Assembly (NCBI GenBank): GCA_023132135.1
Contig: JAGLYR010000105.1
Location: forward strand, 1 to 37,912
Direction of reading: 5' to 3'
DNA length: 37,912 bases
Source: Candidatus Eiseniibacteriota bacterium
GTDB lineage: Bacteria; Arandabacterota; Arandabacteria; JAGLYR01
Positions 1 through 33,866 of this stretch are shown here, in pieces. The notes beneath the pieces are model-generated. The model had not been told where the DNA came from. It was given only the letters and a program-made list of their open reading frames with translations, and did not search any database. How positions within the stretch are numbered: position 1 is the first letter of the stretch; each line of letters begins with the position of its first letter. Position numbers and translations under genes: made by a program.

Positions 1-97
1 TGCGGTCTATTCTCTATTGTCTATTGTCCTGTCCCGCAATGTGCTGGTGTATTGTGAATGGGCTTGTCCATACATAATGCAGCCTAGGAGATGGGGG

Positions 98-850
98 ATG
101 CTGAGAAAACGAGCGGGGATTTGCATGATCGCTGTCCTGGGGACCGTGATCGCTCTCTCGGGATGCGCTCCCGGGGGGAGCAGGCAGGTTGTCGTGGAAC
201 TGGATACGCAAGGCGAGGCCAGCGCAACGGATCCCGAGATCCATATGGAGATTGTCGAGGCTGGTCTTACAGCCGAGTACTACCTGGAGGTTGGAGACAA
301 GATCCGGGTAGATTTTTTCTTCACTCCGGAGCTCTCCGCTGAGCTGTTGGTTCGCCCCGACGGACGCATCACGATGCCCGCGGTTGGCGAGATGATGGCG
401 GCCCGGCGCACACCGCGCGATCTGGCCGCCGAAATCGAGTCCCGTTTCTCGGACATACTTCTGGACCCCGCGGTGACCGTCATTGTGAAAGACATGGCCG
501 CACCGAAAGTCTACGTCATCGGGATGGTCGAGAGGCCCGGCCCTGTGGATTTCCGAAGTTCCCTTTCCGCGATGACAGCGATCTCCGCTGCGGGCGGCGC
601 CAAGCTCGAGGGCAAGTTGGCCAGCGTAATTGTGCTCAGAAAACTCTCGACGCAACGGGTTTCCGTCGCGCGGCTCGATCTCAGCAAGCTTCTCGCCGGG
701 GCGGATCCCTCACAGGACATGTACCTCAAGCCATATGACATCGTCTTCGTGCCCAAGCGTTTCGTAAGTCAACTCCGGGATTTCGCCGTGGACCTGATCA
801 AAACCGTGGTTCCGGCAGTAAACATGTACAGAGGCCGCTGGATTTACTAG
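98..850 (+). CDS. Wza-like polysaccharide export lipoprotein
   Basis: Outer-membrane polysaccharide export protein of about 250 residues. I start at ATG 98 because AGGAG lies 7 nt upstream and this start opens with a signal peptide (basic MLRKR, hydrophobic core, lipobox LSGC with Cys23). An ATG-class start at 17 would bury the signal. After the lipobox come a polysaccharide export domain (from about residue 60, beginning LEVGDKIRV) and an SLBB-type beta-grasp domain (about 145-215, VYVIGMVERPGPV). The protein is much shorter than E. coli Wza (about 380 aa), so it has fewer SLBB repeats. The C-terminus is a short amphipathic stretch. It opens the run of EPS genes, 18 nt before the Wzz-like gene, and should form the outer-membrane channel for the polymer. 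The family is clear; the exact subfamily is inferred. Confidence 0.9.
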   Translation: MLRKRAGICMIAVLGTVIALSGCAPGGSRQVVVELDTQGEASATDPEIHMEIVEAGLTAEYYLEVGDKIRVDFFFTPELSAELLVRPDGRITMPAVGEMMAARRTPRDLAAEIESRFSDILLDPAVTVIVKDMAAPKVYVIGMVERPGPVDFRSSLSAMTAISAAGGAKLEGKLASVIVLRKLSTQRVSVARLDLSKLLAGADPSQDMYLKPYDIVFVPKRFVSQLRDFAVDLIKTVVPAVNMYRGRWIY

Positions 851-868: not shown

Positions 869-2242
869 ATGCAGCAACAGCAGGTAGCGACCGAGACAAG
901 TGTCAGGGACATTGTCACGGTGATCCTGCGCCGGAAATGGGTGATCATCGTTCTGGTGCTGACATCATCAGCCTATATGGGGTGGAAGGCGGCCAAGGCG
1001 CCCGTCATGTACGATTCCCGTGGGCAGATCATGATCCGCCCGGGTGAGCGGTCGAGTTCGATGGTGGCGAATCTCGAGTTTCGACCGTGGGAAGAAGTTA
1101 TCAACTCCGAGATAGCGATTCTCACAAGCGAGCCCGTCGCTCGTCGCGCGACCGCGATCCTGGCCCGAAAATACGAAGAGCAGGGCCTGCCGGGCAAACC
1201 AAGCCGCATTTCCGCCGCGCGCGTGAAACCTGATTCCAAGCGGAATTCCAACATTGTCGATGTCGGCTACCGGGCCCGCGATCCCAAGATTGCGCGAGAG
1301 AGCCTGGATGCTGTCCTGGAAGCATATGTGGGCCTCCACAATGAGCTGTTTGAGCTCCCGGATGCTCACGAGATGTTCGACCAGGAAATGATGCGGGCCC
1401 AGCGGGACCTGGATATCCTCGAGCGCGAGAGGAAAGACTATGCGCAGAAGATGAGTATCACGGACCTGCGACGGCAGAAGGAGGAACTGATCTCGCGGCG
1501 GAAGATCCTCAGAATGCGGAGAATCGAACTCGTTCAGTCCATTGCGACGAAGAGGGTCGAGATTGGGGAGACGGAGCAGCTGATGCTGGAAATGAAACCC
1601 GGGGACCTGGCCCTTACGGGCCGGTACAGTCCCGGGGTGGGAGAAGCGCTCTCGTCGACCCGGCTGGAACTGGTAAAGGTCAAATCGAAGCGACGTGAGA
1701 TCCTGACCAAGTATACGGAGAGTCACCCGCAGGCCGTGGCTCTTGAGAAGCAGACCCGGGAATTGAAGGATCAGATCCGGAGTATCGAGCACGGGCAGAT
1801 CCGGATGCGGCGCTCGGAGCTGAGGGTCCTGGAGGAACAGAAGGAAGTGATCGCGCAGCAGATACTGGAAGTGGAGGAAAACCTTGCAGGGTTCCCCGAG
1901 AAGGAGATGACGATGAACCAGTATGAGCGTTCACTGGGACTCGTCACCAACACCTTCAAGGAGCTCCTGGCCAAGGAGATACACTTCAAGATCGCTGAGG
2001 TGAGCGGACGCGACTATCAGGTGGTCATCCTCTCGGCGGCTTCCAGGGCTCTGGCACGGAATCCCCGGGATCCGGTGCGCCTGTCTCTTGCGCCTGCCCT
2101 CAGTCTGTTCCTGGGTATTGGTCTGGCCTTCTTCATGGACCGTCTGGACCATTCGCTGAAGAATCGGGAGGATACCGAGAACTACCTCGCGCTGCCGGTG
2201 CTGTCCTCTGTGCCAGAAGTGCGTATCCGCAAGAGACCGTGA
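869..2242 (+). CDS. Wzz/GNVR-type chain-length determinant (co-polymerase)
   Basis: Inner-membrane polysaccharide co-polymerase, 457 residues. A first transmembrane segment lies near residues 25-45 (KWVIIVLVLTSSAYMGW). A long, charged, coiled-coil-rich periplasmic region follows. A second transmembrane segment near 405-425 is preceded by a proline-containing stretch and ends with the family-typical LDHSLKNREDTENYL. There is no fused kinase domain; the separate CpsD-like protein two genes downstream occupies that role. Start ATG 869 follows a purine-rich GGAGAGCGGG. In this family the protein sets polymer length and links the inner-membrane machinery to the Wza channel. The size and coiled-coil length fit the form found in exosortase-associated EPS loci, which is inference from architecture. 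Confidence 0.9.
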   Translation: MQQQQVATETSVRDIVTVILRRKWVIIVLVLTSSAYMGWKAAKAPVMYDSRGQIMIRPGERSSSMVANLEFRPWEEVINSEIAILTSEPVARRATAILARKYEEQGLPGKPSRISAARVKPDSKRNSNIVDVGYRARDPKIARESLDAVLEAYVGLHNELFELPDAHEMFDQEMMRAQRDLDILERERKDYAQKMSITDLRRQKEELISRRKILRMRRIELVQSIATKRVEIGETEQLMLEMKPGDLALTGRYSPGVGEALSSTRLELVKVKSKRREILTKYTESHPQAVALEKQTRELKDQIRSIEHGQIRMRRSELRVLEEQKEVIAQQILEVEENLAGFPEKEMTMNQYERSLGLVTNTFKELLAKEIHFKIAEVSGRDYQVVILSAASRALARNPRDPVRLSLAPALSLFLGIGLAFFMDRLDHSLKNREDTENYLALPVLSSVPEVRIRKRP

Positions 2243-2257
2243 GGGGGAGATTCCGTC

Positions 2258-3112
2258 ATGTACTGTTCGTTCTTCAAATTCACTGAGCGACCCTTCAACA
2301 TGACCCCGGACCCAAGATTCCTGTTCATGAGCCGAACCCACACGGAGGCGCTCGCCCATCTGCTCTACGGCATCCGTCATCGGAAAGGCTTCGTGGCGCT
2401 GGTCGGGGAGGTGGGGACGGGCAAGACCACGCTTATTCACACGTTGCTGGACGAAATTGCCGACGATACCCGGGTGGCCATTGTCTCGGGCGGGAGTTTC
2501 ACGCTGGGTCCTTTTCTGCGAATGGTGCTGGACGACCTTGGGGTGCCCTACAGCGGGCGTTCCGCCGCGGACATGATGATTCATCTCAAGACCTTCCTGA
2601 TCGAACAGGCCCGTCAGGGCACGAACGTCGCCCTCATCATCGACGAAGCTCAGGCCATGGCGCCGAGCCTCCTGGAACACGTGCGAATGCTGTCCAACAT
2701 GGAAACGTCCCGGGAGAAGCTGATGCAGATTGTTCTCGTCGGACAGCTGGAGCTGGGACGGATTCTCAGCCGCCCGGAGCTCAGGCAGCTGGCCCAGAGG
2801 ATTGGTCTGAGGTGCAGAATCGATCCCCTCGCGCCCGACGAGATCGCCCGCTACGTCAGGCATCGCCTGACCGTAGCGGGAGCGGGGGACAGGGAGATCC
2901 TGACCGAGGAAGCGCTGGACATCGTTTCCCGTCATTCCGGAGGGATTCCCAGGGTTGCGAATATCCTCTGCGACGGGGCATTGCTGGACTGCTATGCTCG
3001 CAGCCTGCACCGGGTCGATGCGGAAGTCATGAACGCTACGGTTCGCGAATGGGAAGAAGCCATCACAGTGGACGTGCCGCGGGTTTCCATGCGCGCCGCC
3101 GCGCATCTGTGA
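2258..3112 (+). CDS. ExeA-like AAA ATPase of an EPS locus
   Basis: Soluble AAA ATPase of 284 residues, similar to the N-terminal half of ExeA/GspA and to the putative secretion ATPase found beside exosortase-type EPS genes. The N-terminus (FFKFTERPFNMTPDPRFLF) is the characteristic opening of the family. Walker A is GEVGTGKTT (residues 50-58, Lys56) and Walker B is ALIIDEAQ with Asp129-Glu130; both are intact. An AAA lid with the sensor-type motif GGIPRVANILCD lies near the C-terminus. No transmembrane or peptidoglycan-binding segment follows, unlike full-length ExeA. Start ATG 2258 has GGGGGAG about 8 nt upstream. It sits between the Wzz-like and kinase-like genes, so a role in assembly or energisation of export is likely but unproven. 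Confidence 0.85.
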   Translation: MYCSFFKFTERPFNMTPDPRFLFMSRTHTEALAHLLYGIRHRKGFVALVGEVGTGKTTLIHTLLDEIADDTRVAIVSGGSFTLGPFLRMVLDDLGVPYSGRSAADMMIHLKTFLIEQARQGTNVALIIDEAQAMAPSLLEHVRMLSNMETSREKLMQIVLVGQLELGRILSRPELRQLAQRIGLRCRIDPLAPDEIARYVRHRLTVAGAGDREILTEEALDIVSRHSGGIPRVANILCDGALLDCYARSLHRVDAEVMNATVREWEEAITVDVPRVSMRAAAHL

Positions 3113-3129
3113 TCGGAGAGTATACACGT

Positions 3130-3891
3130 ATGAGTCGAATTCACGATGCTCTGGAGAGAGCCCGGCGGGAGCGGGCGAAATCACCGAATCGGGCAGAGAC
3201 GGAGACGGAGTCCAGCCCGGCACCTAAGCCTGTGGAGGGTGGCGCGTCCCTGGCGACGCTGGCGGATTGCTTCACGCAGGAGTGCGAGACGCTCCGGTCG
3301 GCCATCGAGGCAGCGCTCCCGGGCCGGGCCCAGCGTGTGATTATGTTCACGTCGGCCGTCCGCGGCGAAGGCTGCACTACGCTTGTGGCCAGCCTTGCTT
3401 ACACCCTGGCAACCCGGGGCGGTATGCGCGTAGCGCTGGTGGACGCCAATATCAAAGCCCCCGGGCTGGCCGCGTTGATGGGACTGGGCCCGCACGCCGG
3501 GCTCACAGATGTGATCGGGCGTGATCTGGACCTGAACCTGGCTCTGCGGGCCACTCCTACACCGAATCTCCACGTTCTGCTGTGCGGGAACACCCCGCTC
3601 ATCTCCTCGGAGGTCTTCGGTTCCAGTCGCACAGCCTCGGTCCTCCAGAGCCTGAAGGAACATCACCCGTACGTGCTGCTCGATACGTCGGCAGTGATGT
3701 CGGTTCCCGAAGTTGCCATGCAGGCGACATCCGCGGACGGCGTGGTCCTGGTTGCCCGCGCCAACAAGACGGATCGTGCCGTGCTGCAGAAGACGCGGGA
3801 TATCCTCCAGGGCAGTGGCGCGAATCTTCTGGGTGTCGTTCTCAATCGCAGGCGTTTTGTGATTCCAGAGTTCATCTACCGAAGGCTGTAG
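3130..3891 (+). CDS. CpsD/BY-kinase-like protein with degenerate P-loop
   Basis: Protein of 253 residues with the fold of CpsD/CapB/Wzc-type bacterial tyrosine kinases (SIMIBI P-loop class). ATG 3130 gives the family-typical opening MSRIHDALERARRER. The P-loop region reads SAVRGEGCTTL: the invariant Lys is Cys82 (codon TGC). Walker A' is VALVDANIKAP rather than the usual VDADLRRP, and Walker B is YVLLDTSAV. The C-terminus (VIPEFIYRRL) has a single Tyr instead of the autophosphorylated Tyr cluster. These changes suggest a protein that no longer works as an ordinary autokinase and may act as a scaffold or regulator for the Wzz-like protein. It lies 17 nt after the ExeA-like gene. The family is secure; loss of activity is inference. 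Confidence 0.85.
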   Translation: MSRIHDALERARRERAKSPNRAETETESSPAPKPVEGGASLATLADCFTQECETLRSAIEAALPGRAQRVIMFTSAVRGEGCTTLVASLAYTLATRGGMRVALVDANIKAPGLAALMGLGPHAGLTDVIGRDLDLNLALRATPTPNLHVLLCGNTPLISSEVFGSSRTASVLQSLKEHHPYVLLDTSAVMSVPEVAMQATSADGVVLVARANKTDRAVLQKTRDILQGSGANLLGVVLNRRRFVIPEFIYRRL

Positions 3892-3904: not shown

Positions 3905-5467
3905 ATGCGTCCATACGGGACCGGGGAATATTCCCTCAAACGGCCGCGCCGTGAGGCTTTTCCCTGGGCGGTTGCGGGGTTGATCGTGATCGGTCTTGCT
4001 CTGCGGCTGTACCGTCTCGGATCGCAATCGCTATGGATTGATGAGGTCCTCACATTCGGCGACGCGGGGTTGATCTACCAGGAGCATACCTTCCTCGGGA
4101 GTCTGCTCCGGAATCTCCACGGCCCCCTGTACTCGCTGGTTTTCTACGGCACCTGGCAGCTGTCGGGTCTCAATGAGTTCTGGCTCCGGTTTCCCTCGGC
4201 CGTAGCAGGCACCGTCACCCTGGGAGCCATGTATGCGCTGGCCTCTGCCGTCTACGACCGGCACACCGCGTGGTGGGCCGTGCTTCTGCTGGCTCTCTCT
4301 CCGTTTCATATCTGGTACAGTCAGGAGGCCCGGAACTACAGCTTTGTTGTTCTGTTCGTCACCCTGTCGATGCTTTTTCTTCACCGTTTTGTTACCGGCG
4401 GAACCGCCCGTTCGTGGGTAAATTACGTGTGGACAACCGCTGCAGCGCTGCTCAGCAACCTGAGCTGCTTCCTGCTGCTGGCCGCTCAGGGGGCAATAGC
4501 GCTGGTGGGAGGTGGTTCCCGGCGTCGCCTGTGGAGCCTCCTTCCGGCGGGCCTCGTTCTGATCCTCATACTTCTGCCGTGGCTTCTCGAGTTCAACAAC
4601 CGCATGGATCCCGGGCGCGCCCTGCACGGGGCGCCTGTTGCGGAGGAGGAGCTGTTGCGGGGCGATACCACCTTTACTCCATGGGGCATTCCCTTCACGT
4701 TTTTCGTATTCGGCCTCGGGTACTCTGCCGGACCCTCCCTTCGGGAACTCCACATGCAGTCGGCCCTGAGCGCTGTGGCTGGGGAATGGGCCGTCGTCGG
4801 GCTCGGCGCCCTCGTGTTCGGGCTGGTAGCGGCTCTGGGCGCATGGAAAACCCGTGAGGATCGGCGCACCCTGGTTGGATTGCTTCTCTACATCCTGGTC
4901 CCGATGCTCGTCCTCAGCTTTCTCGCTGTAAGGAATATCAAGGTGTTCAACGCACGGTACGTCATGGTCGCGTTGCCCGCGTACTATCTGCTCCTGGCCC
5001 GTGGCCTGTCACAGGTCGGACGCGCCTGGTTGAGATGGATGAACCTGAGTCTGGTCCTTCTGCTGGTCCTGTATTCGCTGTCCAACTACTACTTCGATCC
5101 CAGATACGCAAAGGAGGACATCCGCTCGGCCGTGGACTACGTCCAGGAGCATGCAGCGGATGATGACATTATCCTGATGACGAACTGCCGTTCCGTCTTC
5201 GATCTGTACTATGCCGGGCGGCCGCAGGTTCTGGACATTCTGGATTTGCTCGACCAGGACCCGCTCATCACGGAGGAAAATCTGAAGCAGCTTGCCACAA
5301 TTCACCCCCGGCTGTGGTTGGTTCAGGTCCGGGAGTGGGATGTCGACCCTCACGGTGCACTGGAGAAACTCCTGATGTCCCGTTTCGGGCTCGTGGACAA
5401 GCAGATATTCCCCGGTGTCCGTCTGAGCGCTTTCGATCTCAGTCCTCTGCAGCAGGAGAGCCGGTAA
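3905..5467 (+). CDS. GT39/ArnT-like membrane glycosyltransferase
   Basis: Integral membrane GT-C enzyme of 520 residues with about ten or more hydrophobic segments. The first extracytoplasmic loop carries SLWIDE (Asp46-Glu47), the acidic pair typical of PMT/ArnT proteins. Further family signatures are HGPLYSLV near residue 75 and WYSQEARNYS near 140. A soluble periplasmic domain makes up roughly the last 110 residues. Enzymes of this family transfer a sugar from a polyprenyl-phosphate donor on the periplasmic side. Substrate cannot be deduced. Start ATG 3905 follows GAGGG. Its stop overlaps the next gene's start (TAATG), so it is probably translationally coupled with the nucleotidyltransferase-like gene, and it may decorate the polymer outside the membrane. 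Confidence 0.88.
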   Translation: MRPYGTGEYSLKRPRREAFPWAVAGLIVIGLALRLYRLGSQSLWIDEVLTFGDAGLIYQEHTFLGSLLRNLHGPLYSLVFYGTWQLSGLNEFWLRFPSAVAGTVTLGAMYALASAVYDRHTAWWAVLLLALSPFHIWYSQEARNYSFVVLFVTLSMLFLHRFVTGGTARSWVNYVWTTAAALLSNLSCFLLLAAQGAIALVGGGSRRRLWSLLPAGLVLILILLPWLLEFNNRMDPGRALHGAPVAEEELLRGDTTFTPWGIPFTFFVFGLGYSAGPSLRELHMQSALSAVAGEWAVVGLGALVFGLVAALGAWKTREDRRTLVGLLLYILVPMLVLSFLAVRNIKVFNARYVMVALPAYYLLLARGLSQVGRAWLRWMNLSLVLLLVLYSLSNYYFDPRYAKEDIRSAVDYVQEHAADDDIILMTNCRSVFDLYYAGRPQVLDILDLLDQDPLITEENLKQLATIHPRLWLVQVREWDVDPHGALEKLLMSRFGLVDKQIFPGVRLSAFDLSPLQQESR

Positions 5468-6714
5468 TGGATGGGCTGAAGGTGGATTTCGCGACCAGTG
5501 CGAACGCGCGCGGCCACGGGGCCATCCGCGATATCATGGGACAGGCCGTGGAGCACATCGTGGCAACCCTCGGGGCCGGGACATTGCGTTCCATCATTCT
5601 CACCGGGGCCATGACCCGGGGGGAGGGAACCGTTCTGGAGCGGGAGAACGGGAGTCTACTCATCCTGAGCGATCTTGACCTCTACCTCGTGGGCGCTCCG
5701 GATGTCGACCTGCCGCTGTTGAAGAGGCGCTCCTCCGAAATCGCCTGCTCACTCCGCACCGTCATCCCCGAGGAGCGGATGGCTGCGCCCTTCGATCTGG
5801 CGGGTGTCAGCCTTGAAGAAATTGCTTCGGTCCAGCCCGCGATCGGAACCGTGGATCTCAGGAATCGTGGGAGAGTCATCTGGGGAGAAGACGTTCTCTC
5901 GGGTTTGGCGCCCCTGGAGCCGGGAACCATCCCACCCAGCGATGCGGTGACGCTGATTCTGAACCGGATCGTTGAGGAGTTGATGCACCGGGGCGCGGGG
6001 AGCCCGGCAACGGTAGAGATGGGAGTCTACCACACGGCCAAGACAGGGGCGGATCTGGCCCTGGCAATCCTCGCGCTTCTGGGTGAGTACCGCCCCACAT
6101 ACCGGGAGCGAGCGGACCGCCTTGGTGAGATCTGGGAAGATCCCCGTCTCAAGGACCTGCGACGGCATCTCCCGGACTTGCCCGACCGGGTATCCGAATG
6201 GACGAGGTGGAAGCTGTCGCCCGATCCTGGGACACTTGCGCTGGTCCCGGGCGCAAGCACGTCGCAGGAAGCTGCCGACGAACTCTGGCTGTCCCTGGTG
6301 CCGGCTGTCGAGGCGGTGTGGACCTGGGCCATGCTGCGCTGGACGGGAGACCCGTCATCGGAACCCCTGGCTCTTGCGCCACGGATTGGACAAATGGAGA
6401 CGGCAAGGGAAAGATTCCGGGGATGGAAGCGTGCCTGGCGCCGGGGAGACGTAGGACACGGTCTGGGAGACATGCTCTGTATGGCCAGAGGGATTCCGTG
6501 CGGATCGCCGGCGTCTCTTCTATACGCGGCGGCATCTCTCGCCTACTTTGCGTCGCCGGGCCGAGATGGTCTGGACGACGTGGCCGCGGCCAGGTACCTG
6601 GCGCGCGCCCGGCGGCTCATGCCCATACCGGTGGGGGGCGACGGTGATTGGGATGGAGTAAGACGCGTGCTGGTGGACTACTGGCGCAGAGCGGTGATGA
6701 GGGGGATGAGGTAG
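5467..6714 (+). CDS. Nucleotidyltransferase-fold protein of unknown function
   Basis: Uncharacterised protein of 415 residues. ATG 5467 overlaps the preceding stop as TAATG. The N-terminal 120 residues look like a Pol-beta/MNT-type nucleotidyltransferase: ILTGAMTRGEG (residues 44-54) replaces the usual G-S-x-A-R-G-E, SDLDLYLV gives the metal-binding pair Asp69 and Asp71, and a possible third Asp is Asp110 (PFDLAGVS). About 12 residues are inserted between the glycine and the Asp pair. The rest is mostly helical, rich in Trp and Arg, and I recognise no domain in it. It is coupled both upstream (GT39) and downstream (TAGTG to the phosphohydrolase gene). Nucleotidylation of a sugar, lipid or protein in EPS synthesis is possible; the substrate is unknown. 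Confidence 0.6.
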   Translation: MDGLKVDFATSANARGHGAIRDIMGQAVEHIVATLGAGTLRSIILTGAMTRGEGTVLERENGSLLILSDLDLYLVGAPDVDLPLLKRRSSEIACSLRTVIPEERMAAPFDLAGVSLEEIASVQPAIGTVDLRNRGRVIWGEDVLSGLAPLEPGTIPPSDAVTLILNRIVEELMHRGAGSPATVEMGVYHTAKTGADLALAILALLGEYRPTYRERADRLGEIWEDPRLKDLRRHLPDLPDRVSEWTRWKLSPDPGTLALVPGASTSQEAADELWLSLVPAVEAVWTWAMLRWTGDPSSEPLALAPRIGQMETARERFRGWKRAWRRGDVGHGLGDMLCMARGIPCGSPASLLYAAASLAYFASPGRDGLDDVAAARYLARARRLMPIPVGGDGDWDGVRRVLVDYWRRAVMRGMR

Positions 6715-7844
6715 TGGCGCGGAAGAGCATATTCATACTCATTGATGCACTGGGGTGGGAGAAGGTGTGCGAAACGGATTTCCTCCCGGAGCTGTCGGCC
6801 ACGCGCCGTCGGCTGCGCTGTGTTCTGGGCTACAGTGGCGCGTGCCAGTCCGCACTGTTCTCAGGGAAATCGCCTGCTCAGACCGGCCGCTGGCTCATGT
6901 ACTACTTCACCCGGAGAACGGAGACCTTCGCACCCACCCGGATCCTGAATTACTTTCCGGATTGGGTGAAGAACCGCGGGCCCATTCGCCGCCGACTGCG
7001 CAACTATGTGGCCCGCCGCGTGGGGGGGTATTTCAGCCTGTACTGCGTGCCAATGGAGGTTTTCCCCCACCTCGAGTTGGCCGAGAGGGAGGACCTCTAC
7101 GCTCCCGGAGGCCTGGCTCCGGCCCGGGGGATCTTTGACGATCTGAAGGACAGCGGGGTTCCGCATTCCGTCTGGAGCTGGAGGATACCGGAACAGGAAA
7201 GCCTGGATATCCTGCTTCGGGAGCTTCATGAGGACCAGAAACGGTTCTTTGTGGTGTACTGGACCCGGTTGGACGCGCTCATGCATGTGCACGGCGTGGG
7301 CTCCGAGATCGTCGACAGGCAGGTCCGGTGGTACGAGGACGCCATTCGCCGGATTCTCGAGACTTCATCGCCGGACGGGGAGACGCGCCTTTTCATTTTC
7401 TCGGACCATGGGATGATCGACACACGTAGCAGCATCGATCTTATGGCGCAGGTGACCGGCCTGGGGCTGACATTCGGAAAGGACTACGTGGCGTTCTACG
7501 ACTCGACCATGGCGCGGTTTTCATTTCGAACGGATCGCGGCAGAGATGCGATATGCTCCATGCTCCGCGCCCAGGATGGCGGCGAGCTTCTGGATGACGA
7601 AACCCTCAAATCGCTGGGCGTGTTCTATCCCGACCGCCGGTATGGCGACGCGGTGTTTCTTACCCAGCCAGGTGTTCTGATCGTCCCAAGCTTCATGGGC
7701 CCATCGGCTCCCAAGGCCATGCATGGCTTCCACCCGGATTGCCCCGGGTCCGACGCGCATCTGGTGAGCAACGCGGAGGTCGGGATGCCGGCCGATTCGA
7801 TTCTCGATCTGTATTCCATCATGAAGCAGGAGTTGAGTGGATGA
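6714..7844 (+). CDS. Alkaline phosphatase-superfamily phosphohydrolase/phosphodiesterase
   Basis: Enzyme of 376 residues starting at GTG 6714, which overlaps the previous stop (TAGTG). The metal-ligand pattern of the nucleotide pyrophosphatase/phosphodiesterase group can be followed: Asp11 (FILIDALGW), Asp187 and His191 (LDALMHVHG), Asp231-His232 (FSDHGM) and His340 (HGFHP). Aligning the segment before SGKSP with NPP enzymes puts Ser41 (GYSGACQ) at the nucleophile position, where NPPs usually have Thr. There is no signal peptide, so it should act in the cytoplasm. It forms a coupled pair with the nucleotidyltransferase-like gene, and its stop overlaps the flippase start as ATGA. A role in hydrolysing a nucleotide-sugar, lipid-phosphate or phosphoryl modification of the polymer is inference. 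Confidence 0.7.
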   Translation: MARKSIFILIDALGWEKVCETDFLPELSATRRRLRCVLGYSGACQSALFSGKSPAQTGRWLMYYFTRRTETFAPTRILNYFPDWVKNRGPIRRRLRNYVARRVGGYFSLYCVPMEVFPHLELAEREDLYAPGGLAPARGIFDDLKDSGVPHSVWSWRIPEQESLDILLRELHEDQKRFFVVYWTRLDALMHVHGVGSEIVDRQVRWYEDAIRRILETSSPDGETRLFIFSDHGMIDTRSSIDLMAQVTGLGLTFGKDYVAFYDSTMARFSFRTDRGRDAICSMLRAQDGGELLDDETLKSLGVFYPDRRYGDAVFLTQPGVLIVPSFMGPSAPKAMHGFHPDCPGSDAHLVSNAEVGMPADSILDLYSIMKQELSG

Positions 7845-9364
7845 GCCGTGTGACCGCGTCATCCGGGAGCACCCTGCGCAACGTCGGGACCGCCATGTCG
7901 TGGAGTGTGCTCTCGCGCGTCATCCGGCAGATATTCGGGATGGCATCATCGATCATCATCGTTCGTTCGCTGGGCAAGATGGACTACGGCATCTACGCAT
8001 TGCTGATGTCGGTGTTGACTTTCGGTGTGGCCATCGGCCGGGGGGGGCTTACCCAAGCGATGCTCCGGTATGTTCCAGAGCTCAAGATGAAGGGAGCCGG
8101 GGCCGGGATGCGCCTCCTTCTGCGCACGGTCATCCAGTTCCAGCTGGGGCTCACCGTTGTCATCGTGGTGGTGGGATGGCTGCTCCGGAATCAGGTCGCA
8201 CAGCTCTTCGATCAGCCGGCGCTGGCGGGTCTCCTGGCGCTGGGGTTGGGCCTGGCTATTTTCGAGGTGTACCACGATACGATCAACGAGTCGGCGATCG
8301 CTCTCTACGAGACCAAGACGGTTGCGGTGGCGGCGGTGCTGGGGTCCATCGTAACCTTGGCTGGCGTGATCCTGTTCGTGAAGATGGGTTGGGGCATCGC
8401 GGGAGTGCTGGTTGCCGCGGGTGTGGGGCATCTCGCGGTAATACTCGTTCTCGCACGCAAGGTCCTGCAGTGCATGCGGGCTGGCCGGAGCGACACTGGC
8501 GAGTCGATCAGCCGCAAGAGGTTGTTCAACTACGCATTCCCGTTCCTCGCCATCAACGTGATGGTCCTGATCACGTGGCGCCAGAGCGAGACTGTTTTCC
8601 TGTCGTACTACTGGACACCCGTTGAAGCCGGTCTCTTCGACTTGGCGTACCGGGTGCCCCAACGAATGCTGGAGTTTATTCCGGGGGCCGTGTATCCGCT
8701 GGTGATGGCGGGTTTCTCGGAAGCCATCACCAAGAATCTGGACAGCATGCGGCGCGGCATCGTGATGTACTACCGCCTGCTGTTCCTTATGGTGGCGCCC
8801 ATTTCGGTGTTCGGGATGCTCTATGCCGACCGGTTCATCGAGGTGATGTATGGCGCCGAGATGGCAGCGGCCGGTCCCGTGTGCCAGATCTTCTTCCTAG
8901 TCTTCATGGCGTCGTTCTTTGGAACGCCCCTGAGTATGGCAATCTACGCGGTGGAAAAGACGTGGGTCAACATGATCTTCTACCTGGTTTCGACCGTGGT
9001 CATCGTTGGCCTCGACCTGCTTCTTATTCCGCCCTACGGACTGTGGGGAGCCATCATTCCCGTAGCCGTGATCACGGTTGCCTCGCCCTTTGCCCGATAC
9101 CTGCTGGCGCGGCACTTCGTGGGCAGTATCCGGATCCCGTGGCGTTTCATCCTGCGGATGTATCTGGCTTCGGCTCCGCTGGGGTTGTTTTTCCCTTTCA
9201 GGGAACGGATCGATTCGCCGGCCGCGTTGGTGGCTTTCTGCGCCATCGCGGGCGTGCTTACGGTGGCCGCGATTCGCCTCTGCCGGGTCTTCGGCGCCGA
9301 GGAGAGGGAACTGCTGGAGAAATCCAACTTTCCGATGAGAAGAGTGATTCTGAGGCTGTGGTAG
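7841..9364 (+). CDS. Wzx-type polysaccharide flippase
   Basis: Polytopic membrane protein of 507 residues of the MATE/MOP superfamily (Polysacc_synt/RfbX type). It has about 12-14 hydrophobic helices and the N-terminal pattern VLSRVIRQIFGMASSIIIV followed by a GKMDYGIYALLMSVLTFG segment typical of O-antigen flippases. I start at ATG 7841, which overlaps the preceding stop by 4 nt (ATGA). It should move undecaprenyl-diphosphate-linked repeat units to the periplasmic face for the Wzy-like polymerase encoded at 12625. It is the last member of the tightly coupled block that begins at 3905. Confidence 0.9.
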   Translation: MSRVTASSGSTLRNVGTAMSWSVLSRVIRQIFGMASSIIIVRSLGKMDYGIYALLMSVLTFGVAIGRGGLTQAMLRYVPELKMKGAGAGMRLLLRTVIQFQLGLTVVIVVVGWLLRNQVAQLFDQPALAGLLALGLGLAIFEVYHDTINESAIALYETKTVAVAAVLGSIVTLAGVILFVKMGWGIAGVLVAAGVGHLAVILVLARKVLQCMRAGRSDTGESISRKRLFNYAFPFLAINVMVLITWRQSETVFLSYYWTPVEAGLFDLAYRVPQRMLEFIPGAVYPLVMAGFSEAITKNLDSMRRGIVMYYRLLFLMVAPISVFGMLYADRFIEVMYGAEMAAAGPVCQIFFLVFMASFFGTPLSMAIYAVEKTWVNMIFYLVSTVVIVGLDLLLIPPYGLWGAIIPVAVITVASPFARYLLARHFVGSIRIPWRFILRMYLASAPLGLFFPFRERIDSPAALVAFCAIAGVLTVAAIRLCRVFGAEERELLEKSNFPMRRVILRLW

Positions 9365-12624: not shown

Positions 12625-14148
12625 ATGTGGAAAAAGCCGGTGATGACGACGGAGAGGGTGAGGACGCGCCCGGCGGAACCGGGGGCGCAATGGCTGCGGC
12701 CTGCGTTGCTGCTTGTGATCATTGCAGGACTCGGCGTTGTCATGGCCGTCGTAGTGGACTCCCCTAACAAGCGTCTCATCGAAGCGGTGGGCGGGGGGCT
12801 TTTCCTGATGGTGGCCCTCATGGTCCACATCTCTTTCTCGCTGGGGGTGCTCCTGGCTATGTTGCCTTTTCCGGCCGGGACGTACTATGGGACCAGCAAC
12901 GAGATTCTGATCCTGGTTCTTCTCACCGTCTACGCGGTGAAGCAGATGGTCCGCAGGGAACCGGTCTTTCGGGCGACGCCTATCGATTTGCCGGTGGCGC
13001 TGCTGGTGGTGGCAACCCTGCTCTCCCTCTTTCATGAGGACAGTACCTTCGACCAGACCGTGCCGGAGGTCCGGGCGTTCTTCTCGGCAATTGCTCTGTA
13101 CTACATGATTGTCGCCGGGTGTTCGGAGTCGCGCCATGTGAAGCGACTGATGACCGGCTACTTGATCGCTATGACCGCAGCCAGTCTCGTGGCCGTGCTC
13201 CAGATGTTCTTGCCGGGAACAACCCTTATCCCCAAGTTTATCTACGTGAAGGAGGAAGAGGAGTTCATTCACTACGTCCGGGCAGCAGGAACGTTTGAAA
13301 ATTTCAGCGTGTTCGGGCAGTATATGGCGCTGAACATGATCCTGACGAGCTACCTGTTCATCCGCTCGCGATCGATCCATGGCAAGGTCCTCTATGTGGG
13401 GCTTCTCGCACTGGCCTGCGGGACGTTCCTGTCTTCGGCGATGCGGGGGGCGCTGTTCACCATGGCCGCGGGCCTGATCTATCTGGCGGTTATGGGCAGG
13501 CACCAGGTGAAGCTGCGCGAATGGGCGACGATGCTGGTGATGATTGTGGTTCTGCTGGTGTTCCTGACAGGTGTGATGCTGGCGTATCTCGGGACGGGGT
13601 ATCTCTTTGAGAGGTTTCGGGGCTTCAGTTTGGAATACGGATCGCCGACTAGTCGAAAGGATATGAACCTCTACTTCCTGAGAGAAGCGCTTGACTATCC
13701 CTTCGTGGGACACGGCCCTCACATTAATGTGGAGGTAGGCATCGGGGGCGCCCGCTCGGTGAACCCGCACTGCCAGTACATCCGGTATTTCTATACTATT
13801 GGTCTCATCGGGCTGGCGGGGTTCGTCTGGGCGATGGTGAATCTGTTTCGGTACAGCCTGCGGGCCGTCCGCTCGCGCGCTGGACCGGATCCGTGGAGCC
13901 AGGCAATGGTCGTTGTGTTTCATACGATGTTCGTGGTGTTCGCTCTGCATGAGCTGGTGGACGACTACATGCAGGTCCGCTTGTACCAACACATCGTGTG
14001 GAGTATATTCGGCATTCTGGTTGTCCTGAGCCGGTTGGTGCTGGAGGATGAGAGCAGCCCGAGTGGCGCGCAGGGAGTCTCGCTTTTGCGCGAGGGCGCC
14101 GCGCCGGGCATCGTGAAAGGGTTTCCGCCAACGCGCAGGAGGGTGTAG
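12625..14148 (+). CDS. O-antigen polymerase/ligase family membrane protein (Wzy-like)
   Basis: Polytopic membrane protein of 507 residues with about 11-12 hydrophobic segments. A large loop after residue 330 contains the Wzy_C-type features SRKDMNLYFLREALDYPFVG, HGPHIN and NPHCQYIRYFYTIGLIG, as in O-antigen ligase/polymerase proteins. ATG 12625 begins directly after the GNAT stop; a second ATG at 12643 is a possible shorter start. In a Wzx/Wzy pathway this protein polymerises lipid-linked repeat units in the periplasm, with chain length set by the Wzz-like protein. I checked it as a possible exosortase because of its many helices and found no exosortase-type Cys/Arg/His arrangement. Its stop overlaps the next start (TAGTG). 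Confidence 0.85.
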   Translation: MWKKPVMTTERVRTRPAEPGAQWLRPALLLVIIAGLGVVMAVVVDSPNKRLIEAVGGGLFLMVALMVHISFSLGVLLAMLPFPAGTYYGTSNEILILVLLTVYAVKQMVRREPVFRATPIDLPVALLVVATLLSLFHEDSTFDQTVPEVRAFFSAIALYYMIVAGCSESRHVKRLMTGYLIAMTAASLVAVLQMFLPGTTLIPKFIYVKEEEEFIHYVRAAGTFENFSVFGQYMALNMILTSYLFIRSRSIHGKVLYVGLLALACGTFLSSAMRGALFTMAAGLIYLAVMGRHQVKLREWATMLVMIVVLLVFLTGVMLAYLGTGYLFERFRGFSLEYGSPTSRKDMNLYFLREALDYPFVGHGPHINVEVGIGGARSVNPHCQYIRYFYTIGLIGLAGFVWAMVNLFRYSLRAVRSRAGPDPWSQAMVVVFHTMFVVFALHELVDDYMQVRLYQHIVWSIFGILVVLSRLVLEDESSPSGAQGVSLLREGAAPGIVKGFPPTRRRV

Positions 14149-15259: not shown

Positions 15260-16798
15260 ATGGCGACAACGAGGAAATCGGGGAAAGCCAGCGCGGGCGG
15301 CGGCACTGGTACGCGGGTAACGGCCGGGAAAGACCCGGCCCGCAAGCGGAGCCAGTTCCCATTTCTCGAAGTACTGGTGGCCGGGGATTTCATAGCGGTC
15401 TTCGCGTCCTTGCTGCTGGCCTACTGGATTCGGCTTGGCTCAGGATGGTACGGCGCGTGGGCGCCGCTGGCCGGGTACCACTTCGCCATCGCTGCTGTGA
15501 TCTCGCTCATCTGGCTGGGACTGTTCCGGATGAACCGGCTGTATCATGAAGCGAGGCTCCGGACTATCCTGGATCAGTTTGCGGTGATTGTGAAGTCGGT
15601 TACTCTCGGCATCCTCCTGCTCCTTGCCGCGGCGTTCCTGACCAAGACGGGGTACTTCATCGAGCGACGGCTTGTTGTGCTTCTGGCATGGGTCAACACC
15701 GTGGTTCTGGTCAGCGCGTTTCGGGTCCTCGTGATTCGCCCTCTATACCTGAGGTTTCTCCGCTCGGTGCCGGCCCAGACACGCCTGCTGGTGGTGGGCG
15801 CGGGAGAGGCGGGCAGCAGATTTGCCAGGGAGATCGGACAACGGAGAGATTCCGGGATTGAGGTCATCGGTTTCCTGGATGACGATCCGCAGAAAATAGG
15901 AGCGGCGGTAGCCGGCTATCCGGTGCTGGACAGCATCATGGGTGTCAGACAGGTTGTCGAGAGCTATGGGGTGCATCAGATTTCCGTGGCGATTCCCTCA
16001 ATGGACCAGAATGCAACGCTTGAAATGATGTCGCGCTGCATGCGTGCAGGGGTTCCGGTGAAGCTGGTCGGCGATGCGTTCCACGCGCTCGCATCGGATA
16101 CCGTTGTCGAAATGGTGGATGGGATCCCGACGATCGCGCTTCGGGAGAGCTCCTTCCGGGGCTTTGGCCTGGTGCTCAAACGATGGATGGATGTCGTGGC
16201 CTGCGCAACGTTCCTGGTCATGTTCGCTCCTCTGTTGGGCCTTATCGCGATCCTGATCAAGACTCTCTCGCCGGGACCCGTTCTGTTCCGGCAGATCCGG
16301 GCGGGGAAGAACGGAGAGGACTTCGCTCTCTACAAGTTCCGCACCATGGTGGCAAACTCGGATGACAGTGTCCACCGCCGATACGCGGCGAAGCTCATCG
16401 GCGGCAAGGATATGAACATCAAGGACAAGGTGAGCGACAAGGAGGTCTTCAAACTGACCGACGACCCCCGGGTCACGCGGATCGGGAAAGTTCTCCGCAG
16501 GACATCCCTGGATGAGTTGCCGCAGCTCATCAACGTACTCAAGGGTGAAATGAGCCTTGTGGGGCCCAGACCACCTATTGCCTACGAGCTCGGCCACTAC
16601 AGGGGGTGGCACAAGAAGCGGCTGGAAGCCAAGCCGGGACTGACCGGCCTGTGGCAGGTGAGCGGCCGGTCCAGCGTTCCGTTCGACGAGATGGTGTTAC
16701 TGGACCTGTATTACATCGATCACTGGTCTTTGGCAATGGACTTGGAGATCCTCCTCAGGACGATCCCGGTCGTTGTACTGGGGAAGGGGGCATACTAG
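15260..16798 (+). CDS. Polyprenyl glycosylphosphotransferase (WbaP/EpsE-type)
   Basis: Initiating phosphoglycosyltransferase of 512 residues; I take ATG 15260 rather than upstream starts that overlap the DegT gene. A basic N-terminus is followed by four hydrophobic segments (about 40-170) and a Rossmann-like CoA-binding-type domain beginning LLVVGAGEAGSRFA. The C-terminal bacterial sugar transferase domain opens with a re-entrant helix (RWMDVVACATFLVMFAPLLG). It contains PVLFRQIRAGKNGEDF, YKFRTM, the catalytic DELPQLINVLKGEMSLVGPR and SGRSSVPFDEM. It transfers a sugar 1-phosphate to undecaprenyl phosphate at the inner face of the membrane and so starts each repeat unit. The first sugar (hexose or amino sugar) cannot be read off. 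Confidence 0.93.
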   Translation: MATTRKSGKASAGGGTGTRVTAGKDPARKRSQFPFLEVLVAGDFIAVFASLLLAYWIRLGSGWYGAWAPLAGYHFAIAAVISLIWLGLFRMNRLYHEARLRTILDQFAVIVKSVTLGILLLLAAAFLTKTGYFIERRLVVLLAWVNTVVLVSAFRVLVIRPLYLRFLRSVPAQTRLLVVGAGEAGSRFAREIGQRRDSGIEVIGFLDDDPQKIGAAVAGYPVLDSIMGVRQVVESYGVHQISVAIPSMDQNATLEMMSRCMRAGVPVKLVGDAFHALASDTVVEMVDGIPTIALRESSFRGFGLVLKRWMDVVACATFLVMFAPLLGLIAILIKTLSPGPVLFRQIRAGKNGEDFALYKFRTMVANSDDSVHRRYAAKLIGGKDMNIKDKVSDKEVFKLTDDPRVTRIGKVLRRTSLDELPQLINVLKGEMSLVGPRPPIAYELGHYRGWHKKRLEAKPGLTGLWQVSGRSSVPFDEMVLLDLYYIDHWSLAMDLEILLRTIPVVVLGKGAY

Positions 16799-23314: not shown

Positions 23315-24163
23315 ATGCAGGAATCTGATATCAGGATCCAGCACTACCGGGATCTGGTGGAAGAGAATCTCGAGCGGTGTCTGCCGGTGGGGGGCGCCGA
23401 GCAGCCGGATCTACTCAAGGCCATGCGCTACAGTCTGTCCGGAGGCAAGCGATTCCGTCCTGTCCTGACGCTGGCCTGTGGCGCGGCCGCGGGCGGATCC
23501 CCGGAGAGCGTGATCCCGGCCGGACTGGCAATGGAGTGCATCCATGCGTCATCGCTGATTCTGGATGATCTGCCCTCCATGGACAACGGCATGTATCGCC
23601 GCGGTCACAGGGCAACGCATCTGGTTTTCGGGGAGTCCACAGCAGTGCTCGCCGCGCACGCCCTGCTGGCTCACGCGTTCCGGCTGCTTGCCGGCAACGC
23701 TGCAGACGCTGCTGTGTCCAAGGAGACGGGGTTGTGGGTTATTGGAAGGGTGGCGGACTGCCTCGGGCTGGAAGGGTTGGCGGGCGGACAGTACATGGAC
23801 CTGGAGGCGGCGAGCGGTTCGACGGGCTATCCAGTGGGGGTCAAGACAATCCATGCCCGCAAGACAGCGTCCCTGTTTGTGGCATCGGCCACCGCGGGCG
23901 CGGCTCTGTGCGGTGCGGGGGACGATACCCTCCGAATGCTAGCGTCTTATGCAGAGTACTTGGGGCTCGCGTTTCAGTCCGTGGACGATGCTCTGGATAC
24001 CGGGGAGCGCGGTACGCCCGGGGATCCGGAAACAGCCCGCCGCACCGCGATGGCGGAGGCGAATGAGTTCACACAGCAGGCGATGAGTGCCATCCAACCG
24101 CTAGGGACTAATGGGGTTACGCTTGCGTATCTTGCAACCATGATGATCAGGCGAGGGAGCTGA
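23315..24163 (+). CDS. Short-chain polyprenyl diphosphate synthase, atypical second Asp motif
   Basis: All-helical isoprenyl diphosphate synthase of 282 residues, slightly shorter than IspA-type enzymes (about 295). GGKRFRPVL (residues 43-51) binds the isopentenyl substrate. The first Asp-rich motif is DDLPSMD (Asp84, Asp85, Asp90) followed by YRRG, as in type II FPP/GGPP synthases. Residues 79-80 before it are Ser-Ser instead of an aromatic, which in known enzymes allows a longer product such as GGPP. The second motif DDALD (Asp224-Asp228) is followed by TGERGTPGDPETARRT: the usual block with conserved lysines (LGK..GKD..K.T) is shortened and lysine-free. It may still condense isoprenoids, but altered kinetics or function are possible. 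It may supply lipid-carrier precursors for the EPS pathway. Confidence 0.85.
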   Translation: MQESDIRIQHYRDLVEENLERCLPVGGAEQPDLLKAMRYSLSGGKRFRPVLTLACGAAAGGSPESVIPAGLAMECIHASSLILDDLPSMDNGMYRRGHRATHLVFGESTAVLAAHALLAHAFRLLAGNAADAAVSKETGLWVIGRVADCLGLEGLAGGQYMDLEAASGSTGYPVGVKTIHARKTASLFVASATAGAALCGAGDDTLRMLASYAEYLGLAFQSVDDALDTGERGTPGDPETARRTAMAEANEFTQQAMSAIQPLGTNGVTLAYLATMMIRRGS

Positions 24164-32304: not shown

Positions 32305-33735
32305 CTACTGCGGTATCAGGATTGCCGCCTCGTTATTCCGGAGTTCAATCTCGGTGATGGGATCACCGAGAGTCCCGTCGTCGCTCAGGGCACGGTACGT
32401 TCCCCCGAGATCATGCATGGTCTCGGTCCCGAAGTACAGGAAGTACGATGCACTATCCCGGTGCTTGACCAACACAAGCGCGTTCGTGTACTCACGCGCC
32501 ATGATGTGGTATGTGGAGGCAGGCCTTGCCGGATCCGGGCCCGAGGCCCACACATACGCTGATCCGAGTGGCTCACCTACGTCCTGCGCGATAGCGTCGA
32601 ACCAGTTCAGGTCACCTTTGTGATCGCAAAAGTACAAGTTCGGATGGTTGATTAGATAGAACGTTGCAAGGATGAAGATGCGCCCCCGTTCTGACTCTGA
32701 GTTGTCCTTGGCGCCGAACAGGATCTTCCTACCGGACGCGGCCAACTCTCCGATCCCGAGAACGTCTTGGAACTGAACATCGTACGAACAGGTTGCAGCG
32801 GTGACGTATGGGTCGTAGCGGACTCCGTTCTCGACCATCAGCCAATCGAATCTTTCCAGGAATCGCCCGCTGTTCACCGGCTCAGAGGCCAAATAGTAAC
32901 TCGCCTCGGCGTTGCCTAGCACAATTTTCGGCTCACCGAGTTCCTGTTCGAGGAAGTCCCGCAGCACCGGCATATAGGAGTAATGGTCGTCAATCATGGA
33001 GAAACCCGCGTCGACCGTTTCACCCCAGTACTCGATGGTTTTGTCGAGCATCATATGGGACATAGCGCCCACGATTTTCACTACGCCATCGACAAAAACA
33101 CCATCCACCACGGTATTCCCCTTGCGCATGGTGTGGGCGAGGTACTCATTCCGCCAGTGCTGCCAGGCCCGACTCGCAACGTTCGCCCAGCGCTGGTTCG
33201 CTTTCCACCTGCCCCAGACTCTGGACTCGCTCTTCGCGCTTGCTGAAGCAGGTGGGTCGCCGGGTTGCCACTCTGGGTTCCATCCCGGAACGAACACATC
33301 CTGGGTGCCTCCATCGGGGAAGTTCCAAAGGTAGCTAACGTCTTCCCGATAGTGCAGGAAGAAGTCCTCAACGTCATACCCGTGCGCCGCAGCAAAGGTC
33401 TCCGCGCAGAATTCGCCGATTTCGCAGGAGGGGCCGAAGTAGACCCCCGAGTTGGCGCGGATCAGAATGTACGAGAGCACCAGGATATTGGGGTTGGTCT
33501 CGTAGACCCGTGGAAACCTGATGCCAGTTCCGACGAAGACATCGTAGTGAGTAGCGATGAAATCTGTCTCCGCATCGTCGAGAGCGTCATGACAGATCTC
33601 AAAGGTCTTGATGTGATCGAAGATCGACGCTTTCAGACCCGTCGGAACATACGAAGGCGCCGTGGGCGCGTCGCCACCGCAGCCCGGAAAAAGCGCCAGC
33701 ACGCCAAAAGTCAACAACGCGTATGCCAACCGCAT
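32305..33735 (-). CDS. Putative GHL15-type glycosidase-like lipoprotein
   Basis: Minus-strand protein of 476 residues. ATG at 33735 has AAGGAG 5 nt upstream (33741-33746); GTG 33741, two codons earlier, would overlap that site. A signal peptide ends in a weak lipobox FPGC (Cys19), followed by Gly-Asp and a Pro/Thr linker. The rest looks like a TIM-barrel glycosidase of the 'hypothetical glycosyl hydrolase 15' type: LKASIFDHIKTFEICHD, VDGVFVDGVVKIVG, FDWLMVENGVRYDP and ILFGAKDNSESERG fall at the ends of predicted strands, with acidic residues as candidate catalysts. The C-terminus is a small beta domain. It would act in the periplasm or on the cell surface. It lies between tRNA-Cys and tRNA-Leu, opposite to them. 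Enzymatic activity is not established for this family. Confidence 0.65.
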   Translation of the reverse strand: MRLAYALLTFGVLALFPGCGGDAPTAPSYVPTGLKASIFDHIKTFEICHDALDDAETDFIATHYDVFVGTGIRFPRVYETNPNILVLSYILIRANSGVYFGPSCEIGEFCAETFAAAHGYDVEDFFLHYREDVSYLWNFPDGGTQDVFVPGWNPEWQPGDPPASASAKSESRVWGRWKANQRWANVASRAWQHWRNEYLAHTMRKGNTVVDGVFVDGVVKIVGAMSHMMLDKTIEYWGETVDAGFSMIDDHYSYMPVLRDFLEQELGEPKIVLGNAEASYYLASEPVNSGRFLERFDWLMVENGVRYDPYVTAATCSYDVQFQDVLGIGELAASGRKILFGAKDNSESERGRIFILATFYLINHPNLYFCDHKGDLNWFDAIAQDVGEPLGSAYVWASGPDPARPASTYHIMAREYTNALVLVKHRDSASYFLYFGTETMHDLGGTYRALSDDGTLGDPITEIELRNNEAAILIPQ

Positions 33736-33866
33736 AGCCACTCCTTGTCAGGCGTCTGCGTCCTCTCCCAATAGTATAGCAGAAGAGCTCGCTGCGCGCC
33801 AACATATGACGTGAGGTGGACCGGGCCTTGTCATGCAGGGCGTCTACGACACCTTGCATTGTTCGA

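Follow-up and report, generated by a model that had tools for sequence, protein, structure and literature searches.

What do a putative nucleotidyl-adding enzyme and a putative phosphodiester-cleaving enzyme, encoded by overlapping genes, do together in a bacterial exopolysaccharide (EPS) operon? The question arises at contig JAGLYR010000105.1 of a Candidatus Eiseniibacteriota bacterium, of which the whole stretch of 37,912 nucleotides was analysed and is here called the window. Two forward-strand genes are at issue. The first (5467..6714) encodes a nucleotidyltransferase-fold protein of 415 residues (NT; P0001), as judged from its translation, an AlphaFold2 (AF2) model and a Foldseek search. 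The second (6714..7844, GTG start) encodes a protein of 376 residues (AP; P0004) that matches PF01663 at 1.9e-11 and resembles the nucleotide pyrophosphatases/phosphodiesterases (NPPs) of the alkaline phosphatase superfamily. A preliminary description of this DNA had suggested that the two share a role in EPS synthesis and that no role had been described for such a pair. The latter point holds, as the pair is named by no family model and by no paper in the literature searched, which was mostly without subscription journals.

Conservation of the pair across genomes

NT and AP form a near-obligate, conserved two-gene module, which occurs together far beyond chance in many bacterial phyla and in some archaea. 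This was not apparent from P0001 as a lone query, which found zero relatives in the genome-contig scan, in 41 relatives and in plasmids. Relatives of P0004 are present in 8 of 195 genomes of another phylum, apparently Myxococcota, and inspection of the neighbourhoods of these AP genes revealed that their clusters also contain a relative of NT. The NT from one such cluster (P0005) is similar to P0001 at a BLASTP E-value of 3e-6.

A survey of 84,980 species genomes was then made with the AP alignment alone, and NT was sought by profile in all open frames of the loci obtained. Among the matches listed, AP loci come from Spirochaetota, Nitrospirota, Verrucomicrobiota, Chloroflexota, Omnitrophota, Myxococcota, Woesearchaeota, and another archaeon, the archaeal share being two contigs. 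Among these matches, the loci of the specific AP family all have an NT unless the contig ends at AP, as it does in L038 and L053 (which represent a single Corallococcus contig edge), L048, and L055. On the other hand, the same profile search detected no NT alongside the distant, generic AP loci listed (L060, L062–L070).

An independent test used 386 diverse genomes sampled by kinship and not by content, counting long NT matches and AP matches, each with E-values up to 1e-25. NT is present in 15 of the 386 genomes and AP in 15, and these are the identical 15 (hypergeometric log10 P ~ −26.6, relatedness ignored). The adjacent homologue pairs that the preliminary description proposed to look for therefore exist in these genomes as well as at loci from many phyla. 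With the NT fold also predicted (see below), the idea withstood two of the three refuting outcomes named there. Fourteen of these genomes have the two genes side by side, and the remaining one, G441, has them on separate contigs; G349 and G486 carry two pairs each. Ten other genomes gave short NT matches of lower significance (E 1e-6 to 1e-11), which were read as generic NT proteins.

Gene order, fusions, and co-divergence

The arrangement of the pair is also conserved. Of 39 tabulated pairs, 37 lie on one strand, the commonest order is NT-AP, and the gene ends often overlap by 1, 4, 8 or 11 bases. Other loci place glycosyltransferase (GT) genes between the two: the Corallococcus-type order is AP-GT4-NT, spirochaetes have AP-GT2-NT, and L043 and L045 have AP-GT4-flippase-GT2-NT. 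In a few cases one partner is fused to a glycosyltransferase, with NT behind GT2 in L036 and L057, and AP ahead of GT4 in L047 and ahead of GT2 in L125. The suspicion of another GT2-NT fusion, in L052, was abandoned, as no glycosyltransferase domain was found there. The families seen in 53 adjacent or intervening genes are led by Glycos_transf_1 (13), the flippase family Polysacc_synt (13), and Glycos_transf_2 (9).

The pairwise distances of NT and AP are correlated, with a Mantel r of 0.72 for 40 loci and 0.45 for 23 dereplicated loci; none of 5000 permutations reached the observed value in either case. These data bear on the explanation that two unrelated enzymes are operon neighbours by happenstance. 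Proteins of the alkaline phosphatase superfamily are indeed common in the class, with 24–44 PF01663 matches in each of eight genomes of 2–3 Mb (G000 and its class relatives G001–G007), which counts in favour of this explanation. However, the exact co-occurrence, the kept order and overlap, the correlated divergence, and the lack of an adjoining NT at the generic AP loci all speak against coincidence, which we regard as extremely improbable.

The neighbourhoods also bear on a second explanation, in which NT would nucleotidylate an EPS enzyme (a glycosyltransferase, kinase or flippase) and AP would erase the mark, much as in GlnE/GlnD control. The genes adjoin those of tyrosine kinases, glycosyltransferases, and flippases, a glycosyltransferase fusion could keep a modifier beside its target, and GlnD is weakly matched by one NT member. 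Yet the neighbour families vary between loci, with no single conserved target apparent, and the proteins nearest in fold have small sugars and nucleotides as substrates. Modification of a protein is, in our judgement, quite unlikely.

Several other neighbours were recorded. A B12-binding radical SAM protein precedes NT in L123, and three such proteins occur among the neighbour genes. STAS, SpoIIE/HATPase or response-regulator genes precede AP in spirochaete, verrucomicrobial, and other loci (L041:9615-9944, L044:9571-9930, L043:7563-7862, L045:7786-9983, L134:8314-9477), hinting at partner-switch control of the cluster. Sequence inspection, the only method applied here, placed Wzm/Wzt-like ABC export genes near the NT-AP pair of L125 (5496-7525), and the pair may thus extend beyond Wzx flippase pathways.

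The nucleotidyltransferase-fold protein

P0001 has zero matches in Pfam and NCBIfam. Across 24 NT members, NTP_transf_2 is weakly matched by two and DUF4111 by none (E 0.1). When compared with PDB sequences, the NT-family profile finds mostly aminoglycoside nucleotidyltransferases, with HalB among the matches, at weak E-values of 0.01-2. The AF2 model (pLDDT 88.7, pTM 0.89) shows an NT domain at residues ~1-140 and a large all-helical C-terminal domain at ~157-411. Its top PDB match in Foldseek is AadA with ATP and streptomycin (6fzb, E 4e-4, prob 1.00). With a G-[GSA] motif, a DxD/E, and a third acid on an alpha/beta domain, P0001 is predicted to have the nucleotidyltransferase (Pol beta) fold, as had been read from its SDLDLYLV motif.

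Residue counts refer to alignment columns over the 24 members, in P0001 numbering. In the motif G47-A-M-T-R51-G-E53 (5605..5625, forward strand, as are all residues below), G47 is kept in 24/24, R51 in 22/24, and E53 in 23/24. SDLDLYLV spans residues 68-75 and holds D69 and D71, the catalytic acids of a D69-x-D71 motif and predicted Mg ligands (5671..5679; D69 is D in 19 and N in 5, D71 is D in 16, E in 7, and G in 1). The third acid, D110 (5794..5796), is D in 18, E in 5, and S in 1. In AadA, Asp47, Asp49, and Glu87 bind magnesium, Glu87 is the base, and Arg192, Lys205, and Tyr231 are on the phosphates (PMC6065190). The spacing between D71 and D110 is 39 residues, compared with 38 in AadA where Glu87 is the catalytic base, and D69, D71, and D110 would by analogy be equivalent to Asp47, Asp49, and Glu87. 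Two residues of the helical domain are candidate phosphate contacts by the same analogy: R167 (5965..5967; R in 23/24) with Arg192, and K192 (6040..6042; K in 21 and R in 3 of 24) with Lys205.

NT probably acts in the cytosol, its solubility being suggested by hydropathy and the model. Some members are borderline, with hydropathy maxima up to 1.89 in the helical domain or elsewhere, compared with 2.65 for the membrane glycosyltransferase (GT-C) encoded upstream.

The NPP-like protein

PF01663 is matched by all 26 AP members. In a comparison of the AP profile with PDB sequences, NPP is found at 3.4e-21, and the AF2 model (pLDDT 93.4) leads Foldseek to Xac NPP (E 1.5e-17, TM 0.70). The PF01663 match and a set of six predicted metal ligands place P0004 in the alkaline phosphatase superfamily. 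Counted over alignment columns of 26 relatives, in P0004 numbering, the ligands D11 (6744..6746, forward strand, as are those that follow), D187-x3-H191 (7272..7286), and D231-H232 (7404..7409) are each conserved in 26/26. The last of the set, H337 (7722..7724), is kept in all 25 members that reach that position. The preliminary description had placed Asp11, Ser41, Asp187, His191, and Asp231-His232 correctly and overlooked H337. S41 (6834..6836), the predicted nucleophile, is S in 23, T in 1, K in 1, and G in 1 of 26; the NPP-type Ser/Thr nucleophile is thus present in P0004 and in the main AP clade. A family-specific motif, D263-S-T-M-x-R268 (7500..7517), lies outside the canonical NPP ligand set, with D263 and R268 in 26/26.

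The AP proteins start right at the first strand, which leaves no room for a signal peptide, and are clearly soluble by simple hydropathy (maximum 1.45). AP is therefore taken to act in the cytosol, as far as its sequence can indicate.

These structural likenesses also raise the possibility of nucleotide signalling, in which NT would make a soluble messenger in the way of CD-NTases and AP would degrade it, as ENPP1 does cGAMP, tuning polysaccharide synthesis. HalB and the CD-NTases rank next after AadA in structural similarity to NT, AP resembles ENPP1, for which a cGAMP-bound structure exists, and STAS, SpoIIE or response-regulator genes stand ahead of AP in several loci. On the other hand, AadA outranks HalB and the CD-NTases, no receptor-type family recurs among the neighbours, PADLOC has no defence family for the pair, and either partner can be fused to a glycosyltransferase. 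A signalling function is, on balance, distinctly improbable.

Proposed function of the pair

We propose that NT nucleotidylates, or otherwise links a phosphodiester to, a glycan intermediate in the cytosol and that AP resolves the product, the two forming one module of surface-glycan assembly; we consider this reading about evenly poised between right and wrong. A glycan acceptor is favoured because of the glycosyltransferase neighbours, the fusions of either partner, and the likeness of NT to enzymes that adenylylate sugar-like rings. Phosphodiester cleavage is favoured because AP resembles NPP. The near-obligate pairing implies that neither step is useful without the other. Taken together, these arguments lead us to prefer nucleotidylation by NT followed by resolution by AP.

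In this mechanism, the neighbouring glycosyltransferases would make a glycan intermediate, and NT would modify one of its hydroxyl groups with a nucleotidyl moiety or another group in phosphodiester linkage. NT would take this group from an NTP or another nucleotide donor, using the two-metal mechanism of the aminoglycoside adenylyltransferases. AP, as an NPP-like two-metal phosphodiesterase acting via Ser41, would cut that phosphodiester. Two outcomes can be envisaged. The cap could be taken off again, giving a reversible checkpoint before export, or the cut could fall on the nucleoside side so that the phosphate stays on the sugar, an add-then-trim route as in mannose-6-phosphate formation. 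We infer the acceptor, the donor, the bond cut by AP, and any link to export. The shared EPS role suggested earlier is accordingly upheld in one part: action in the cytosol on a glycan intermediate is supported because of the glycosyltransferase fusions, the flippase and glycosyltransferase neighbours, and protein starts without room for a signal peptide. It stays conjectural that the two reactions oppose each other on a single mark, that this mark is a nucleotidyl group and not some other phosphodiester, and that it acts as a gate for flipping.

A different chemistry, similar to that of LicD, would have NT use a CDP- or UDP-conjugate as the donor of a phospho-linked group for the glycan, with AP as a required processor of donor or product and not an eraser. 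According to PMC11666461, enzymes of the LicD family, which belong to the NT superfamily, draw on CDP conjugates for capsule synthesis, and two sequential steps fit the near-obligate pairing at least as well as addition and erasure. This transfer is nevertheless unlikely, as PF04991 (LicD) is unmatched in NT members at E 0.1 and inspection recognised no CDP-conjugate supply gene consistently beside the pair.

Several observations weigh against nucleotidylation followed by resolution. The likeness of NT to AadA is remote (TM 0.33-0.51), with HalB and the CD-NTases close behind in Foldseek, and the first Asp is replaced by N in the Corallococcus-type NTs. The NT and AP trees conflict for Corallococcus, particularly in NT, and for some deep branches, while shallow clades agree. 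AP column 62, the place of Xac N111, the NPP active-site Asn located 21 residues after the nucleophile, is never Asn (L 12, F 4, E 4, Y 3, M 2, V 1). Finally, 7 of 39 readable loci have A, R, K or G in place of the AP nucleophile: Ala in L123, L125, and L127, Arg in L124 and L128, Lys in L049, and Gly in L058. Some AP members may therefore make no use of a phospho-serine or may be inactive.

L123, L125, and L127 form an AP sub-clade with an Ala nucleophile and intact metal ligands. In L049, L124, and L128, the AP nucleophile and the NT third acid are both lost (Fisher's exact P 0.014, uncorrected for the partial relatedness of the loci), a coincidence that is at most suggestive. L124 (G349) and L128 (G486) are the second pairs of their genomes, with the AP nucleophile changed to Arg and the NT third acid to Ser or Gly.

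A broader version of the proposal is that the pair represents an unrecognised, cross-domain step in surface-glycan synthesis, in which a new NT family nucleotidylates in the cytosol, an obligate NPP-like partner releases or trims, and capping is regular in many phyla. This version is offered tentatively and is rather doubtful. A perfectly co-occurring, widely spread, and unnamed pair points to a missing step in the making of surface polysaccharides. If true, the proposal would give many uncharacterised polymers an additional chemistry and a point of control, perhaps along with phosphate decoration. Both proteins are small, predicted soluble, and predicted catalytically intact, which makes the proposal directly testable.

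The operon and its surroundings

The pair in the window is joined to its neighbours by short overlaps, located where they had been described. At TAATG (5465-5469), the GT-C stop (5465-5467) meets the NT start (5467); at TAGTG (6712-6716), the NT stop (6712-6714) meets the AP GTG start (6714); and at ATGA (7841-7844), the flippase ATG (7841) overlaps the AP stop (7842-7844). The upstream gene, previously called GT39, encodes a PMT_2-type GT-C membrane glycosyltransferase (3905..5467, Pfam PF13231 7.9e-11), and the downstream gene a Wzx-like flippase (7841..9364, Polysacc_synt_3, Pfam PF13440 9.8e-20, PF01943 4.1e-11), consistent with the earlier assignments.

Further upstream on the same forward strand are genes for an OPX/Wza-like polysaccharide export protein (17..850, NCBIfam TIGR03027 1.7e-33), a PCP/Wzz-like chain-length determinant (869..2242, TIGR03007 5e-13), and an ATPase of the XrtA/PEP-CTERM-associated type (2258..3112, TIGR03015 2.5e-81), all three below the cut-offs of their models, followed by a polysaccharide tyrosine autokinase similar to the C-terminal part of CpsD/Wzc (3130..3891, NCBIfam TIGR01007 1.2e-29). 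Pfam/NCBIfam searches identified a Wzy_C protein (12625-14148) and an EPS_sugtrans initiating glycosylphosphotransferase (15260-16798), and sugar-modifying enzymes are also listed after the flippase. The joint presence of OPX, PCP, tyrosine kinase, flippase, Wzy-like protein, and initiating glycosylphosphotransferase assigns the operon, by its predicted gene products, to the Wzx/Wzy EPS type.

A polyprenyl synthetase gene (23315-24163) lies directly 3' of the EPS glycosyltransferases and possibly serves the supply of lipid carrier. The window also encodes a putative glycoside hydrolase GHL15 protein (32305-33741, reverse strand) and, near its end, a large Eco57I/TaqI_C-type restriction-modification enzyme (34345-37332).

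Comparison with known systems

Judged by their sequences, NT belongs to a family that Pfam and NCBIfam do not yet contain, and AP forms a clade of its own within a known superfamily. The best structural match of NT, AadA or ANT(3'')(9), shares its NT and helical domains, the DxD with a third acid, and their near-equal spacing. By comparison, the helical domain of NT is larger and unrecognised as DUF4111, sequence similarity is barely detectable, and NT is encoded in glycan loci beside a phosphodiesterase-like partner. The ANT(3'')(9)/AadA family is defined by the NTP_transf_2 and DUF4111 Pfam domains (PMC6065190). Membership of NT in it was rejected, given the lack of a Pfam match for P0001 and of DUF4111 in the members searched.

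AP shares with Xac NPP and ENPP1-7 the fold, the six metal ligands, PF01663, and, in the main clade, the Ser/Thr nucleophile. It differs in having no signal peptide, no Asn at the place of Xac Asn111, D263 and R268 of its own, and a nucleophile that is lost in divergent clades. The missing Asn keeps AP from full membership of the NPP family. Hailong HalB and the CD-NTases have the NT fold in common with NT but are defence systems, whereas the NT-AP pair sits in a glycan context; as a known anti-phage defence system the pair was discarded, with 0 of 10 proteins matched by PADLOC. The LicD/FKRP phosphotransferases of capsule and teichoic-acid synthesis are, like NT, NT-superfamily enzymes in polysaccharide loci, and the part of the source at hand mentions no AP-superfamily partner for them (PMC11666461). 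NT was not assigned to the LicD family, a PF04991 match being listed for 0 of 24 members.

For the add-then-trim version, the closest analogy is the mannose-6-phosphate pathway, in which GlcNAc-1-phosphotransferase adds a phosphodiester-linked group to a glycan and the uncovering enzyme trims it; these enzymes are eukaryotic and unrelated, and the likeness is one of logic and not of kinship. No polysaccharide system known to us has both NT and AP. To our knowledge, no Wzx/Wzy or ABC pathway described so far includes nucleotide capping of glycans, and a nucleotidyl cap, if demonstrated, would be categorically new.

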